Source: a virus
Length of the DNA stretch: 32,315 nt
Strand: one strand, 5' to 3'
Virus record (IMG/VR): IMGVR_UViG_3300034095_000609
Location: 1 to 32,315 of that record
Position numbers and translations under genes: made by a program. This document shows, piece after piece, positions 2,618 to 7,885 of the stretch. A model generated the notes under the pieces. The model made no database searches. It was given only the letters and a program-made list of their open reading frames with translations, and was not told where the DNA came from. The stretch's first letter is position 1; each line of letters begins with the position of its first letter.

Positions 2618-2634
2618 TTGGCACGAAGTTTGCT
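2618..2634 (+). promoter_or_regulatory. Sigma-54 (RpoN) -24/-12 promoter
   Basis: The sequence TTGGCACG-AAGT-TTGCT matches the RpoN consensus YTGGCACG-N4-TTGCW at every conserved base, including the GG (2620-2621) and GC (2632-2633) doublets and the 4-bp spacing. Transcription would start near 2645 and run into the 2816-3790 small-gene cluster. Sigma-54 promoters need an enhancer-binding ATPase, which is not encoded here and would have to come from the host. Confidence 0.65.
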
Positions 2635-2761
2635 TGCCCCTAATCTAAAAATAATAAATAAAAATCTATTGACATCTTGTCTATTCTTTGCGAGAGTGTG
2701 CGAGTGCTGGCTACGGATGCCCTTAGAATAAGGCTCTGCGGACTGAATCACAAATTGCTCT

Positions 2762-2793
2762 TTGACTAAAAAAACTTTTCGCGCTGGTAGAAT
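2762..2793 (+). promoter_or_regulatory. Weak extended -10 promoter candidate
   Basis: An extended -10 (TGGTAGAAT, hexamer at 2788-2793) lies 23 bp before the 2816 ATG. TTGACT at 2762-2767 is 20 bp upstream, which is too far for a normal -35. It may be an alternative start to the sigma-54 promoter; support is weak. Confidence 0.25.
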
Positions 2794-2815
2794 GCCAGTG
2801 TGAATCAACCTAAAA

Positions 2816-2968
2816 ATGAACATGACTAAAAATCAAATTCACGCCTTAAAGATGAAACTCGCATCATTGAATATTAAATTGATTGATGCGAAAGCCGCCA
2901 ACAAACCAACACTTGAATTACAAGCCGCCTTTGATGCCCTTGCAAAACTAATCGCAAACCAAAAGTAA
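2816..2968 (+). CDS. Small helical protein (50 aa)
   Basis: A 50-residue basic product, MNMTKNQIHALKMKLA at the start, then AANKPTLELQAAFDALAKLIANQK. It is largely predicted helical with heptad-like Leu/Ala spacing and no membrane segment. The family is unknown. An internal ATG at codon 3 is an alternative start. The leader reads AACCTAAAA immediately before ATG, an SD-less motif repeated before other genes of this phage. It is first in the cluster downstream of the sigma-54 promoter. Confidence 0.55.
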   Translation: MNMTKNQIHALKMKLASLNIKLIDAKAANKPTLELQAAFDALAKLIANQK

Positions 2969-2978
2969 AAAGCCCCAT

Positions 2979-3089
2979 ATGAACACCAAAAAATCAGACG
3001 ACATCATTTGCCTTATCGGCCTCATTGTCATTCTTGGAATGATCGCGGTCTTCACTTTGAAACTACAAACAAGTTTCCCCTTAAACTAA
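2979..3089 (+). CDS. Single-pass membrane microprotein (36 aa)
   Basis: A 36-residue ORF 10 nt after the previous stop. MNTKKSDD is followed by a hydrophobic helix IICLIGLIVILGMIAVFTL and a short tail. One transmembrane helix with a basic/acidic N-terminal head is clear from composition. Function is unknown; small phage membrane proteins may act in lysis control or superinfection exclusion, which is speculation here. Confidence 0.5.
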   Translation: MNTKKSDDIICLIGLIVILGMIAVFTLKLQTSFPLN

Positions 3090-3110
3090 ACCTAAAAAGA
3101 AAATCCTAAT

Positions 3111-3431
3111 ATGACAACAACGAAAAAAACACCTGCCGAGATAGCTGCTTACTTTGTGGCACACTGCCGGAAAAACGAGATCATCATTGAACGCTGTGAA
3201 AATATCCTGACACTCACAAAACGGATTTCTATTGGCGATAAATTAGCATTTGCAAACGCTGAATCAGATTGCTCTATTATTTATTCACTGCCGGGGGCCT
3301 GTGGTTCAGTGTGGGGCACGGATGGAGCTTCTATTGGCGGCATGGCCGCTCTTAATAGTGGCCGCTTTCGTTTGAATCGCTCTGGTGTTCAGAAACGAGT
3401 TTTAAAAGCTATCCGTGAAGTTTCCCGATAA
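3111..3431 (+). CDS. Hypothetical protein (106 aa)
   Basis: A 106-residue soluble protein. An N-terminal helix (TPAEIAAYFVAHCRKNEI) precedes strand-rich sequence (NILTLTKRISIGDKLAFANAES) and a Gly-rich segment GACGSVWGTDGASIGGMAALNSG at 63-85, ending in a basic helix. I do not recognise the family. The leader AAACCTAAAAAG is the same SD-less type as at 2816 and 3515. Two hairpins follow the stop. Confidence 0.7.
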   Translation: MTTTKKTPAEIAAYFVAHCRKNEIIIERCENILTLTKRISIGDKLAFANAESDCSIIYSLPGACGSVWGTDGASIGGMAALNSGRFRLNRSGVQKRVLKAIREVSR

Positions 3432-3437
3432 ATCGAA

Positions 3438-3476
3438 ACGGGAGTTTTCCCGTCTTCACACTGTGGCAGGTGTGAA
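3438..3476 (+). repeat. Tandem hairpins in a leader
   Basis: ACGGGA/TCCCGT (3438-3443, 3448-3453; loop GTTT) is followed at once by TTCACAC/GTGTGAA (3455-3461, 3470-3476; 8-nt loop). No U-run follows. They lie between the 3111 and 3515 genes and may be processing, attenuation or operator elements. Confidence 0.5.
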
Positions 3477-3514
3477 CTGATGAGATTGCCAAACCTAAAA
3501 CACAAAATAATAAC

Positions 3515-3790
3515 ATGAATCGTATCACTAAAAAACAACTCGTTGCACGCATTGAAACAATCAATTCAATACTCAACCGTCCTTTGACTCCATACACTCG
3601 CACAGATGACAAGCTTGCGGCTAACATTGGCAACTTTAGCCTGTCGCAAGCGTATGGCGGATATGGAGTGCATTTGATGGTAAATGATGGCGGCGGGGTT
3701 TCTTGCCCTATTTGGGACGGGCACGTTTCAGCTCGTGAAGCTTATGAGCGTCTTTCTTCTTTCATTCGCGGCCTCACTTTCACTAAATAA
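3515..3790 (+). CDS. Conserved small phage protein with GGYG / NDGGG motifs (91 aa)
   Basis: A 91-residue protein with an N-terminal helix (ITKKQLVARIETINSILN), then RPLTPYTRTDDKLAANIGNF, LSQAYGGYGVHLMVNDGGG and a C-terminal helix AREAYERLSSFIRGL. I recall this arrangement (KKQLxxRIExIN, PxxPY, ANIGN, AYGGYxxHxMVNxGGG) in many short uncharacterised phage and bacterial proteins; no function is established to my knowledge. The leader is AAACCTAAAACACAAAATAA, SD-less. A terminator follows 9 bp after the stop. Confidence 0.8.
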   Translation: MNRITKKQLVARIETINSILNRPLTPYTRTDDKLAANIGNFSLSQAYGGYGVHLMVNDGGGVSCPIWDGHVSAREAYERLSSFIRGLTFTK

Positions 3791-3799
3791 TCCAATAAT

Positions 3800-3826
3800 G
3801 CGGGATGTTCAATCCGTCCCGCTTTT
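3800..3826 (+). terminator. Rho-independent terminator
   Basis: GCGGGA (3800-3805) pairs with TCCCGC (3817-3822), loop 11 nt, followed by TTTTCT. It sits 10 bp after the 3515 gene stop and probably ends the 2816-3790 unit. A partly similar GCGGG/CCCGC pair recurs at 4166-4191. Confidence 0.65.
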
Positions 3827-3842
3827 CTCTTCTCTTATTATC

Positions 3843-4037
3843 ATGAAAAAACTATCTAAAGAATACTATTTTGAATTAGCTCAATTTTGCATTGATTATC
3901 ATTCTGGCCAATGGTCAAGAGGATATCGGCTTATTTCCCGCCTATGCCCTTCTAATTTCTCCTCTTCACTATCTGAGGAGTTGAGAGAATCGGAAGCATA
4001 TGAGTGGCTCGTCACAAACTACGCAGAAAAAATCTAA
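3843..4037 (+). CDS. Hypothetical protein (64 aa)
   Basis: A 64-residue soluble protein rich in aromatic residues (MKKLSKEYYFELAQFCIDYHSGQWSRGYR at the start, then LCPSNFSSSLSEELRESEAYEWLVTNY). No family is recognised. The ATG at 3843 is preferred over in-frame upstream starts, which would overlap the 3515 gene and the terminator. It has no clear SD. It would need its own promoter after the terminator or read-through. Confidence 0.55.
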   Translation: MKKLSKEYYFELAQFCIDYHSGQWSRGYRLISRLCPSNFSSSLSEELRESEAYEWLVTNYAEKI

Positions 4038-4041
4038 TCCT

Positions 4042-4152
4042 ATGTCTAAACTAAACTCATCTCTCCAATATAATCGCGCAAAGAATCGTTTCTTCGGTCT
4101 CTTGCTCTTCCTTTCCACTCTTGGCGCAATCCTGATATTTGCCCTATTGTAG
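4042..4152 (+). CDS. Single-pass membrane microprotein (36 aa)
   Basis: A 36-residue ORF 4 nt after the previous stop. MSKLNSSLQYNRAKNR is followed by a hydrophobic helix FFGLLLFLSTLGAILIFALL that runs to the C-terminus. This predicts an N-in tail-anchored or single-pass membrane peptide. Function is unknown. Confidence 0.5.
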   Translation: MSKLNSSLQYNRAKNRFFGLLLFLSTLGAILIFALL

Positions 4153-4278
4153 CCTGTCACGCATTGCGGGCTATGTTCAATTCATTCCCGCATCGCTCAT
4201 ATTCGCCTTCTGCCGCATTTTTATTCTCTCTCTGCTATGTTACCATTCCTCTTTTCTGTCGCACTTTCCTGCGGCTTT

Positions 4279-4292
4279 GATCGTTTACGATA
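4279..4292. promoter_or_regulatory. Dyad variant GATCG-TTTA-CGATA
   Basis: One mismatch from the recurrent dyad (first T replaced by G). It lies in the 4153-4349 intergenic region, about 57 bp before the 4350 start, the sort of place an operator would be expected. Confidence 0.5.
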
Positions 4293-4311
4293 ATCTTCCC
4301 CTCTTATTTTT

Positions 4312-4349
4312 CCCTCCACAACACAACAAACCACAACACAACACAAATA
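4312..4349 (+). promoter_or_regulatory. CCCTCCACAA leader before the 4350 gene
   Basis: CCCTCCACAACACAACAAA (4312-4330) then continues A/C-rich to the ATG. The region has no SD and little potential for structure. The same CCCTCCACAA block starts the leaders of the 4563 and 5944 genes. CCUCC equals the core of the 16S anti-SD, so it cannot pair with the ribosome in the usual way. Confidence 0.5.
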
Positions 4350-4538
4350 ATGAATAACACGATAAAAAAACTAAACACGCTCAAAAATATCCCATTTGAA
4401 CAATGGCCTCTCCATGGGGTAAAATTGAAAGCTGTTTCTTCAAATGCCAATGGCTTAGTAAATAGCGGGATAACAAAATGCGGAGTTTATTTTTTCCGTA
4501 AATGGCAAGGAAATAATTCTGAACTCGTTACACAATAA
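4350..4538 (+). CDS. Hypothetical protein (62 aa)
   Basis: A 62-residue basic protein: MNNTIKKLNTLKNIPFEQWPLHGVKLKAV, then NANGLVNSGITKCGVYFFRKW. The family is not recognised. It follows the long A/C-rich CCCTCCACAA leader. Its first 15 bp around the ATG (TAATGAATAACACGA) recur exactly at 11896-11910, and the next gene also starts ATGAATAA, hinting at a duplicated initiation region. Confidence 0.55.
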   Translation: MNNTIKKLNTLKNIPFEQWPLHGVKLKAVSSNANGLVNSGITKCGVYFFRKWQGNNSELVTQ

Positions 4539-4540
4539 AA

Positions 4541-4562
4541 CCCTCCACAATACAACACAAAA
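4541..4562 (+). promoter_or_regulatory. CCCTCCACAA leader before the 4563 gene
   Basis: CCCTCCACAATACAACACAA runs directly from the 4350 gene stop to the 4563 ATG, again without SD. It is the second of three leaders of this type. Confidence 0.5.
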
Positions 4563-4832
4563 ATGAATAATACACTCCACAATCGCCAATTTCCTCTTGG
4601 AATAATTCACGATGATGAAAAGCTTATTGTCATAACCTCACAAGGGACTCATTACGCTACGACATACGACCCTGCCGCCGCTCGCCTCATCGCCGCCGCT
4701 CCGGAATTGCTTTCCGCACTGGAGTTCCTGCTTGCGGATTATATCGCAATCAATGGGGAAAAGCTAACAGGTTCCTCGGTTCCTGCCGACAAGGCCCGCG
4801 AAGCCCTCCACAAAGTGAAAGGAGAGGCATGA
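4563..4832 (+). CDS. Phage protein with ARLIAAAPELL motif (89 aa)
   Basis: An 89-residue protein. The N-terminal half is strand-like (FPLGIIHDDEKLIVITSQGTHYATTY). The C-terminal half has DPAAARLIAAAPELLSALEFLLADY (residues 37-61) and ends in KAREALHKVKGEA. The ARLIAAAPELLxAL block is widespread in short uncharacterised phage proteins; its role is not known to me. The stop overlaps the next start (ATGA). Confidence 0.75.
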   Translation: MNNTLHNRQFPLGIIHDDEKLIVITSQGTHYATTYDPAAARLIAAAPELLSALEFLLADYIAINGEKLTGSSVPADKAREALHKVKGEA

Positions 4833-5062
4833 TCCAGAAACTAATTTTTCCCGGTGGTATTTTCTCTCCGGGCACGTTTGTTCTCCATAAGATAACAGGT
4901 AAATTTACGGGGAAATGTTCCGCATGGTTTGACTCAGAAGGGAAAATGACAGATTGCGAGTGGATTCGCAAAGATGGAAAGGTCTGCCTTATCCCTCCAC
5001 ATAAGCCAATGTATCGCTATCTGGAGTCCCTCGGGCCAATCTGGAAAGGAGATTCAAAATGA
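4829..5062 (+). CDS. Hypothetical protein (77 aa)
   Basis: A 77-residue strand-rich protein (PGGIFSPGTFVLHKITGKFTGKCSAWFDSEGKM, then DCEWIRKDGKVCLIPP). No family is recognised. The start is set by the ATGA overlap and by a good SD (AAAGGAG) 5 nt upstream, in contrast to the SD-less first genes of these units. It is followed by another ATGA overlap. Confidence 0.65.
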   Translation: MIQKLIFPGGIFSPGTFVLHKITGKFTGKCSAWFDSEGKMTDCEWIRKDGKVCLIPPHKPMYRYLESLGPIWKGDSK

Positions 5063-5232
5063 GCGCGGAATTTCATTCTATGTCAAAGCGGATCAAAGCG
5101 GCCTCCACACTCGCCGACCTTGTGAAGCTGGAAACTTCACTTGACCGATGCTGGAATGCGGGTTGCTTTTCCAAGGGCGAGTTTGTCGTTCTGGATTGCA
5201 TGATTATCCAACGAAAAATGCGATTCGATTAG
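5059..5232 (+). CDS. Hypothetical protein (57 aa)
   Basis: A 57-residue protein starting in the ATGA overlap with the previous stop, behind an AAAGGAG SD. The sequence is helical (MSKRIKAASTLADLVKLETSLDRCW, then FSKGEFVVLDCMIIQRKMRFD). No family is recognised. It ends the 4350-5232 coupled cluster, just before a strong hairpin shared with the convergent gene. Confidence 0.6.
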   Translation: MSAEFHSMSKRIKAASTLADLVKLETSLDRCWNAGCFSKGEFVVLDCMIIQRKMRFD

Positions 5233-5238
5233 CCTTTT

Positions 5239-5279
5239 ACAAGGGGTAGAAATAGTCCAATCCTATTCTATCCCCTTGT
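5239..5279. terminator. Long hairpin between convergent genes
   Basis: ACAAGGGG (5239-5246) pairs with CCCCTTGT (5272-5279). The stem continues inward with TAGAAATAG/CTATTCTA and single-base bulges, giving about 16 pairs. It lies between the rightward 5059 gene and the end of the leftward 5312 gene. On the plus strand only CCATACTTTTAT follows, so the U-run is poor; transcription may end here in both directions. Confidence 0.55.
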
Positions 5280-5311
5280 CCATACTTTTATATGACATAC
5301 TTTGCACTACC

Positions 5312-5875
5312 CTACTGTTCCCTTTCAAGGGGTTCTATCTGCCCCTCCACAGCATCGGAACATTCCACGGGAACAATATCAATATCGACTGCTTTTTTTG
5401 GCCCTTCCACATGGAGCGAAATCATTGCATTTATGTTTAACCCCTTCCTATCGTGAAGATTATTCTCGTCCAATCCCAACGCTCTGGTAGCCATTTTCTC
5501 GTATTGCGCCAACACGTCGAGCCTTCCGGCTTGGTCTTTAATGTTCCCGCTTTTAGTCCTAATCTCAATCTGTTTTCTCTCCTCAGAAATTTGGGCGAGC
5601 ATGAAATTGTAATGGTTTTCCGTTTCCCTCCGCATCACGTCTTCCATTTTCGGAGCCAAAGTGTTCGCCACTTCTTCGCGCAATTTAAGCCGCTTCGCTA
5701 TCCATTTTCCCTGCACCATGAGGTTCTTCAAATAATTTTTGGACAACTTAGAAAACTCAGGAGTTTTGAGAATGTCACCAAGCTCCGCTCCCGCCATGTA
5801 TAACTGTTCAATCTTCGCAACGTCCCACTTCCTGCGGCGTGTTCCCAGTGTCTCAGCGTTGTATTCTTGCTTCAT
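5312..5875 (-). CDS. Putative terminase small subunit-like HTH protein
   Basis: A 187-residue protein. The N-terminal region KWDVAKIEQLYMAGAELGDI then LSKNYLKNLMVQGKWIAKR (about residues 16-62) follows the W..I..LY..G....I......S...L......G.W..KR pattern of helix-turn-helix DNA-binding domains in small terminases. A long charged helix (residues 65-115) and an acidic C-terminus follow. Small terminases recognise the packaging site and recruit the large subunit, which is not in this window. The gene is alone on the minus strand inside a rightward block. An unrelated HTH regulator cannot be excluded. Confidence 0.5.
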   Translation of the reverse strand: MKQEYNAETLGTRRRKWDVAKIEQLYMAGAELGDILKTPEFSKLSKNYLKNLMVQGKWIAKRLKLREEVANTLAPKMEDVMRRETENHYNFMLAQISEERKQIEIRTKSGNIKDQAGRLDVLAQYEKMATRALGLDENNLHDRKGLNINAMISLHVEGPKKAVDIDIVPVECSDAVEGQIEPLEREQ

Positions 5876-5880
5876 ACCTT

Positions 5881-5909
5881 CTTCTATTCTATACCCTTTC
5901 GCTTGTCAA
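5881..5909 (-). promoter_or_regulatory. Candidate leftward promoter for the 5312-5875 gene
   Basis: On the minus strand TTGACA (5904-5909) is 17 bp from TAGAAG (5881-5886). The -35 is perfect and the -10 matches four of six bases. Start would fall almost at the ATG (5875), giving a leaderless or near-leaderless mRNA, which weakens the call. Confidence 0.3.
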
Positions 5910-5916
5910 TAAATTT

Positions 5917-5943
5917 CCCTCCACAACAAACCAACCAAAACTA
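5917..5943 (+). promoter_or_regulatory. CCCTCCACAA leader before the 5944 gene
   Basis: CCCTCCACAACAAA followed by CCAACCAAAACTA leads to the 5944 ATG. It is the third leader of this type and again has no SD. Confidence 0.5.
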
Positions 5944-6087
5944 ATGAAAATAACACCACACAAAACAGTTACACACGGAACCTGCCTTCCACCAGAGGCG
6001 TATATTCGTTTATGGAATGCCGCCGCCAAAGCTAATATCAGCGAAGTTCTTAAATTCAAATCCACAGTATACCCTATTAAAAAATGA
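5944..6087 (+). CDS. Hypothetical protein (47 aa)
   Basis: A 47-residue basic product: MKITPHKTVTHGTCLPPEAYIRLWNAAAKANI, then SEVLKFKSTVYPIKK. The start at 5944 is chosen because it follows the CCCTCCACAA leader; longer in-frame starts would overlap the divergent 5312-5875 gene. The stop overlaps the next ATG (ATGA). The family is unknown. Confidence 0.55.
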   Translation: MKITPHKTVTHGTCLPPEAYIRLWNAAAKANISEVLKFKSTVYPIKK

Positions 6088-6272
6088 GAACCTTTAACCT
6101 ACACAAACAGAAACCTGTCTTTCGCATTAAAGACACTCACCTTTCTGGTGAGTCTGTGAAACGGGAGCTAATGGAAGCATTGGAAGCAGTCTTAGATTGC
6201 TATGGAGATGGCGATACTCTCCTCATGATGCAATGCAAGGCGGCCTTAGATAGAGCAAGGAGGAACCCATGA
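6084..6272 (+). CDS. Hypothetical protein upstream of helicase (62 aa)
   Basis: A 62-residue protein coupled by ATGA at both ends. A basic head (MRTFNLHKQKPVFRIK) precedes helices SVKRELMEALEAVLDCY and DTLLMMQCKAALDRARR, a pattern common in short phage proteins of unknown function. It lies directly before the helicase and contains that gene's SD. Confidence 0.6.
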   Translation: MRTFNLHKQKPVFRIKDTHLSGESVKRELMEALEAVLDCYGDGDTLLMMQCKAALDRARRNP

Positions 6273-7885
6273 ACATCCACGATCTTATGGCAACAGTTGA
6301 ATGGTCGCATCCCATTCAACTCAATACAAAGCGAGGCGTTCGATTACTGAAGAAAGCTCCTATCACTCAGGCTTTTTGGAAAGTCTATGGTGAGGACAAG
6401 GAGTTATTCAAAAAACAAATGGGCGATGCCGGGATTCAGTTGGGCAAGTTCCGAGAGGAATGGCAGCTTACCCATTGGTCAGATGATCAACTGAAGTTTA
6501 AACAGATAATCGTTACCGATACTCAGGCCGAAGCGATTCAAGAATTAGATTTTTCCCCTCTACTGCACCCCGAAGGACTCTTGCCTTATCAACTAACGAG
6601 CGTCCAGATGGGTGTTGCCAGCATGAACAAATACAATCGGGTGCTTCTTGGACACTCTACGGGTGTAGGCAAAACATTCTGTGCTTTAGGTATTGCCAGA
6701 GAACTCGGCAAACGCATTGCGGTTGTCTGTCCAAAGCCTATCACTACCGATTGGCATCGTGCCGCGAAGATGATGGGCGTTGAAGTCTTTGAGATTTGCG
6801 GATGGGAGTGGGCCAAAACAGGAAAATCTCAACTTGGTAGATGGACAGACGAGAATAAGAAAACATTCCGATTTATGCTGCCAGAAGATGTCCTCCTCGT
6901 ATTTGATGAGGTTCATCGCGGAAAGGGTGAAGCTACCCAAAACGCCTATCTTGTCCGGGATTCAGTAGTCCAGAACATTCCTGCCATTGCTTTGTCTGCT
7001 ACCATTGCCGACGATCCAACTAAGCTGTGGGCAATCGGTCAGTTCCTCGGACTCCACCAAGGAGGAAAAGACTACTTTCGATTCCTCAGTCAGAACGGAT
7101 GCCGCAAAACCCGCTTTGGAATGCAGTTTACAGGTGGTCATTCAGTTTTGAAGAGATTGCATAGCCGCATTTACCCAGAGCGAGGCAATCGGTTAAGACA
7201 TTCTGATCTCGGTGATGCGTTTCCTGATACGCTAATCAAAGCCAAAGCGTTTGATATGGACAATGCCCGAAAGATTGCTGATGAATACGATGATCTCTTA
7301 TGCCGAATTGATGAGTTGCGCGGCCTTGAAAACTTCTCGGCTAATGTTTTAGCAGAGCAGACCAGAGCAAGGCAACGCATCGAACTCCACAAAGCCCCGG
7401 CAGTCTGTGCGATGGTCAGAGACATGATCGAGGAAGGCAACTCGGTATTTGTAGCGGTGAACTATACCGAGACTCGCAAGTTCATCTTGGACGAGCTTAA
7501 AACTAATTGCTCTATTCATGGAGGACAGGATGAGATGGAAAGGCGAGGTAACATTGATGCTTTCCAACGCGATGACTCACGGGTCATCGTGGGAATAATT
7601 CAAGCTTGCAGAGAAGGGTTAAACCTTCACGATCTCAATGGCAACTATCCCCGTGCCGCTCTAATCATGCCTTCACCTTCGGTCTTTGACCTTAAACAGG
7701 TCTTAGGTCGAGTCCATAGATCAGGAGGCAAGTCAAAGTCCCTTCAATACATCGTATATGCCGCTGGGGTTGGTATCGAAGAGTCAATCTGCGAGAAGTT
7801 AGATACCAAACTGAAGAGACTCGATGTCTTGGCAGATGGCGAGGTTGATCCCACAATCTCACTCGCTCCTAAACAAATAGTATAA
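6269..7885 (+). CDS. SF2 (SNF2-like) DNA helicase
   Basis: A 538-residue superfamily 2 helicase/translocase. Visible motifs: LLPYQ (104-108), Walker A GHSTGVGKT (128-136), Walker B DEVH (213-216), motif III SAT (243-245), a second RecA domain with motif V CREGLNLHDL and motif VI QVLGRVHRSG. The compact size and QxxGRxHR box fit phage SNF2-type helicases that unwind or remodel DNA during replication, recombination or repair. The start is fixed by an AGGAGG SD (6258-6263) and ATGA overlap. A near-perfect copy of the recurrent dyad lies inside at 6508-6521. A terminator follows the stop. Confidence 0.92.
   Translation: MNIHDLMATVEWSHPIQLNTKRGVRLLKKAPITQAFWKVYGEDKELFKKQMGDAGIQLGKFREEWQLTHWSDDQLKFKQIIVTDTQAEAIQELDFSPLLHPEGLLPYQLTSVQMGVASMNKYNRVLLGHSTGVGKTFCALGIARELGKRIAVVCPKPITTDWHRAAKMMGVEVFEICGWEWAKTGKSQLGRWTDENKKTFRFMLPEDVLLVFDEVHRGKGEATQNAYLVRDSVVQNIPAIALSATIADDPTKLWAIGQFLGLHQGGKDYFRFLSQNGCRKTRFGMQFTGGHSVLKRLHSRIYPERGNRLRHSDLGDAFPDTLIKAKAFDMDNARKIADEYDDLLCRIDELRGLENFSANVLAEQTRARQRIELHKAPAVCAMVRDMIEEGNSVFVAVNYTETRKFILDELKTNCSIHGGQDEMERRGNIDAFQRDDSRVIVGIIQACREGLNLHDLNGNYPRAALIMPSPSVFDLKQVLGRVHRSGGKSKSLQYIVYAAGVGIEESICEKLDTKLKRLDVLADGEVDPTISLAPKQIV
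6508..6521. promoter_or_regulatory. Dyad variant AATCG-TTAC-CGATA in helicase gene
   Basis: One mismatch from the recurrent dyad (first T to A). In coding terms it reads within I-V-T-D, one of two codon phases used by intragenic copies. Confidence 0.45.

Follow-up and report, generated by a model that had tools for sequence, protein, structure and literature searches.

A conserved sigma-54-like element placed before a sigma-70-type promoter and a boxA-bearing leader in a family of uncultured freshwater phages

The DNA analyzed here, referred to as the window, is the complete stretch of 32,315 nucleotides of an IMG/VR virus record. Near one end of the window a long gap extends from an ORF that ends at 1874 to an ORF that starts at 2816, and behind it follows a cluster of small genes that is closed by a helicase gene. 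The gap holds two sigma-54-like sites together with further signals, so that the region reads as follows:

2520-2536, + strand: distal -24/-12-like element TTGGCATAGGATTTGCT, two mismatches, GG and GC intact
2544-2562, no strand assigned: palindromic direct repeat TTTTCATTTTTTAATGAAA, copy 1, a possible regulator site; relatives vary in the kind and presence of the palindrome
2593-2611, no strand assigned: palindromic direct repeat TTTTCATTTATTAATGAAA, copy 2, with the same variation among relatives
2618-2634, + strand: proximal -24/-12 element TTGGCACGAAGTTTGCT, exact match; predicted sigma-54 start near 2645
2669-2697, + strand: sigma-70-type promoter, TTGACA at 2669-2674, N17, GAGAGT at 2692-2697 (weak -10)
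2704-2751, + strand: leader RNA stem; RNAalifold gives 13 consensus pairs, 8 of them with two-sided pair-keeping changes
2755-2765, + strand: boxA-like TTGCTCTTTGA, conserved as TGNTCTTTGA in the leader alignment
2781-2801, + strand: putative short hairpin GCGCTGG...CCAGTGTG ahead of the small genes' first ORF, seen in the sequence of the window and of most relatives
2816-6272, + strand: small-gene cluster, mostly variable among relatives
6269-7885, + strand: helicase at the cluster end (PHROG 62, Pfam ResIII and Helicase_C), conserved

When the cluster was compared by tblastn with 37 relatives, most early small ORFs were present in only 0-14 of them, while the ORF at 6084-6269 was present in 32; one conserved ORF (5312-5875) lies within the cluster on the - strand. 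Terminator-like hairpins are found downstream of the leader, for example at 3800-3822, in a number that is within chance. Additionally, the palindrome TATCG-N4-CGATA is dispersed over the window in 11 copies (at 985, 1876, 9851, 11841, 22545, 28594, 29525 and others), many of them directly before start codons, and three relatives carry 15-22 copies each. It is a candidate operator or RNA hairpin.

The pattern TTGGCACG-N4-TTGCT matches the + strand at exactly 2618-2634 with no mismatch, for which a chance expectation of about 0.001 is calculated (13 specified bases, 32 kb, both strands). The GG at -24 and the GC at -12 are 10 bp apart, and the flanking consensus YTGGCACG-N4-TTGCW is exact in the window, with relatives mostly showing TTGGCAYG-N4-NTGCT. 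Read backwards, the pattern gave no match in the window. With up to three mismatches allowed, loose matches were at chance level (13 found, 9.9 expected), the only exact one being 2618-2634. The distal site lies 98 bp upstream of the proximal site.

Relatives were collected from IMG/VR, where the helicase search gave 38 loci and the search with the deaminase gave 78. A profile built on window 2650-2802 detected the leader in over 50 loci, of which 30 have a non-redundant upstream region. We scanned the 260 bases before each leader, requiring GG-N10-GC and a score of at least 10 of 13, and detected at least one sigma-54-like site in 26 of the 30 non-redundant relatives, 49 sites in total; since these rows share ancestry, the counts describe conservation and not independent trials. 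The reverse strand of the same 30 regions gave no site at all. In 200 first-order Markov shuffles the mean was 1.4 matches (maximum 5) versus the 49 real sites, and 1.3 leaders with a match (at most 5) versus the real 26. T-26, GG, A-22, GC and T-11 are invariant across the 49 sites, of which GG and GC were demanded by the scan and T-26, A-22 and T-11 were not demanded individually. Position -14 is T in 47 of the 49, and the spacer bases vary. An independent count of TGG[CA][AG] followed by TGCT gave 47 pairs with a spacing of 7; no other spacing had more than 3, and the opposite strand had none. More than one copy is present in 22 of the 26 site-bearing leaders, the window included, the second copy being mostly 34-98 bp, commonly 37 bp, upstream of the proximal one. 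Four of the 30 relatives (L020, L002, L014 and L007) have no sigma-54-like site, yet they keep the sigma-70-like promoter and the leader. These four are scattered on the helicase tree and four changes are needed to explain them, which shows that the sigma-54-like element is an optional and rapidly exchanged input in this phage family.

Downstream of the element and ahead of the genes, the sigma-70-like promoter is kept in all 30 leaders and matches at 9-12 of 12 positions. Most relatives have 32-35 nt from C-12 of the proximal site to the first base of TTGACA, five have 44 nt and one has 104 nt. A constant distance, or one that changes in steps of 10 bp, was not seen as a general rule in unrelated phages. 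As in known boxA leaders, a conserved boxA-like TGNTCTTTGA and a covarying RNA stem come together near the predicted transcript 5′ end. Rfam gave nothing convincing in the leader region. Parts of the leader and boxA (window 2704-2765) recur in the more distant viruses L095, L100 and L102, there without sigma-54 sites. The original prediction of a perfect RpoN match is borne out by these data, and the conservation that it asked to be checked is indeed found. Its view of the element as the promoter directly upstream of the cluster has to be refined: the element is perfect, conserved in position and precedes the cluster within the long gap, but the sigma-70-type promoter and the structured leader (2704-2801) intervene, so that it is not the sole promoter, and it usually comes in at least two copies.

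For a comparison beyond the family, IMG/VR was scanned with TTGGCACG-N4-TTGCTT and, as a control mis-spaced by one base, with an otherwise identical pattern that has N5. Each pattern occurs in at least 120 stretches, and the stretches listed are samples and not censuses. In these samples 44 of 108 in-register sites were intergenic versus 10 of 114 control sites (Fisher p=2e-8, a value that is optimistic because some sites come from similar phages). Four of the 10 intergenic control sites belong to a single phage and appear to fall in tRNA genes. Within 400 bp, 27 in-register sites have the start of an ORF of 80 aa or more, compared with 3 in the control. Neighbouring site pairs within 130 bp numbered 78 in the in-register loci and none in the control loci, a count that reflects clustering and not general frequency, as the in-register loci were picked for containing a site. 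Arrays of up to about nine sigma-54-like sites on both strands were seen in L192 (6519-8146), L164/L153, L182, L200, L143 and L239, with preferred spacings of 25-28 bp (tandem), 19-22 bp (convergent) and 24-25 bp (divergent); in L143 and L244 the arrays adjoin repeated DnaA-box-like TTATCCACA. An unrelated G+C-rich viral contig carries TTGGCACGGCGCTTGCTTGCCCC upstream of an ORF (L118, 265-282, - strand). In two other phages an exact sigma-54-like site stands 150 nt upstream of a late sigma factor (phrog_234; L184) and 262 nt upstream of a small terminase (phrog_3802; L195), respectively.

Some of these phages encode an activator of their own. A PF00158 scan of 67 in-register records revealed a clear enhancer-binding protein (bEBP) in six (G033, G038, G040, G058, G059 and G064) and no match above the cut-off among 50 control records, weak matches being left uncounted in both sets. 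The six records form two groups by sequence, and G033 shares 97% identity with G040 over 3.5 kb, so that they represent few independent cases. The five bEBPs that we read out (L485 1438-2211 in G033, L487 in G059, L486, L488 and L490) have 235-257 aa and carry the sigma-54 contact loop in its GSFTGA form; a perfect site follows 1 or 21 nt after the end of their genes. The protein is phrog_7998 ("unknown function"), has the Pfam Sigma54_activat domain and matches NtrC-family AAA+ structures. G033 holds three perfect sites: the first between the bEBP gene and the replication genes that follow it, the second before a 493-aa gene of unassigned function, and the third before a 1034-aa gene belonging to the terminase-containing block. 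The initial assumption that sigma-54 promoters are rare in phages looks doubtful, given the enrichment of exact in-register sites in intergenic viral DNA and the phages with their own activator. A connection with sigma-54 has been drawn for the myxophage Mx8. Our literature search, which covered few subscription papers, returned no publication in which a phage operon is driven by a sigma-54 promoter, and this is weak evidence for novelty.

Taken as a whole, the sequence data make it probable that 2618-2634 is a genuine, conditional sigma-54 (RpoN) promoter in tandem with the sigma-70 promoter, served by host RpoN and a host activator. This reading builds on the sequence, the exact spacing, the conservation, the fixed place before the sigma-70 promoter and the covarying leader, the bEBP-paired sites in other phages, and the intergenic preference of in-register over mis-spaced sites in the IMG/VR samples. 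Moreover, the halves of the element differ at fixed positions, unlike those of a symmetric dimer site, which argues for sigma-54. We infer an RpoN in the host, a host bEBP acting here and transcripts starting at this position. Host RNA polymerase with sigma-54 would bind 2618-2634 as a closed complex, and an active host bEBP would trigger transcription from near 2645. This start would be a conditional input added to the neighbouring sigma-70 promoter, and both promoters would feed one boxA-bearing leader RNA and the small-gene/helicase operon. A link of the small-gene cluster to host nutrition or envelope stress, as initially proposed, is speculation. The four relatives that keep the sigma-70 promoter and the leader without a site count against the tandem sigma-54 promoter, and so does the spacing of 34, 44 or 104 nt from TTGACA, which hints at a coupling to the sigma-70 promoter that a stand-alone sigma-54 promoter would not need. 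Also on the negative side, no bEBP gene was found in 18 records of the window family, many of which are fragments, and the activator may be the host's; no phage-encoded sigma-54 was found in 26 records. A common enhancer palindrome upstream of the sites was not found in the family, where the upstream palindromes are variable and an enhancer may lie at a distance.

Alternatively, the element could serve a different protein, of the host or of the phage, as an operator through which it controls the sigma-70 promoter, and the sigma-54 likeness would be the result of convergence. This would suit a host that may lack rpoN, the possible cyanophage link, the helical-looking distances to the sigma-70 promoter, and the upstream copies that, with AA following, become the imperfect palindrome TTGGCA-N7-TGCTAA. 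The invariant pattern, however, is the asymmetric one of sigma-54, and its recurrence in unrelated phages with a G+C content of 31-62% suggests a widely shared host protein; we regard an operator of this kind as unlikely. The bEBP-encoding phages, which put single perfect sites right before gene blocks in the manner of promoters, speak against a further possibility, in which sigma-54 polymerase would form silent closed complexes that start no transcript and instead modulate or obstruct the sigma-70 promoter or sequester sigma-54. Such complexes would explain the tandem copies in most relatives, the packed both-strand arrays of other phages with their preferred spacings, and the 10-bp steps in the site-to-TTGACA distance within the window family, but these steps stem from few independent events and are absent in unrelated phages, and we consider silent complexes about as unlikely as the operator. 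That a chance match is kept by common descent only is highly improbable, because the key bases and their spacing stay constant while the bases of the spacer, the flanking sequence and the number and spacing of copies vary, even though the sites in relatives are not independent and four relatives have none.

The main threat to the sigma-54 promoter comes from the host. A host search of genome contigs with helicase and terminase alignments found no relative, and cultured relatives of the window DNA, the terminase and the portal were not found either. There is one strong link to a cultured phage: a relative (G001; L127 7098-8228) encodes a glycosyltransferase with 73% identity to its counterpart in Synechococcus phage S-CAM7, a possible hint of a cyanobacterial host; the likeness to cultured phages is otherwise limited to weak helicase and general deaminase similarity. 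The strong conservation of TTGACA in this phage family and a boxA-like sequence closer to the proteobacterial than to the cyanobacterial type presumably disfavour such a host. If the host were nevertheless cyanobacterial, the sigma-54 reading would be in danger, since sigma-54 is absent from cyanobacteria (PMC3162934). A Shine-Dalgarno motif precedes 1 of the 18 window ORFs of at least 150 aa and is near-absent also in G001, G009 and G014; this scarcity points to a low-SD host.

Similar sites in other environmental phages, some beside a phage-encoded activator, suggest that phages may use sigma-54 control more than realised. We see about an even chance that sigma-54 transcription is a widespread and little-noticed mode of phage control, with an own minimal bEBP and perfect promoters for gene blocks in some phages, a host bEBP that ties the operon to a host signal in the window family, and site arrays in others. 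If true, phages of the window family would read host sigma-54 signalling (nitrogen, carbon or envelope state) when they express the small-gene cluster, while other phages would swap the host signal for their own activator. The phage sites and phage bEBPs are directly testable cases.

With bacterial sigma-54 (RpoN, -24/-12) promoters the element shares the consensus YTGGCACG-N4-TTGCW, the 10 bp between GG and GC and an intergenic place upstream of genes; it differs in being phage-borne, in having usually at least two copies and in standing directly before a sigma-70 promoter. Tandem sigma-54/sigma-70 promoters are known from bacterial operons such as glnA, where likewise a conditional and a housekeeping promoter serve one operon. 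Here, in contrast, the operon is that of a phage and has a structured boxA leader, and the sigma-54 part is present in some and absent from other close relatives. The leader itself resembles the antitermination leaders of rRNA operons and of the lambda nut type in its hairpin and boxA-like TGNTCTTTGA near the operon 5′ end, with the hairpin preceding boxA as in rRNA leaders; unlike these, it has no identified antiterminator and no Rfam match. Finally, the bEBPs of the other phage groups, not of the window, share with PspF/NtrC-type proteins the Sigma54_activat domain, the Walker motifs and the GSFTGA loop, but they are phage-encoded, comprise only 235-257 aa, and no DNA-binding domain was found in them.
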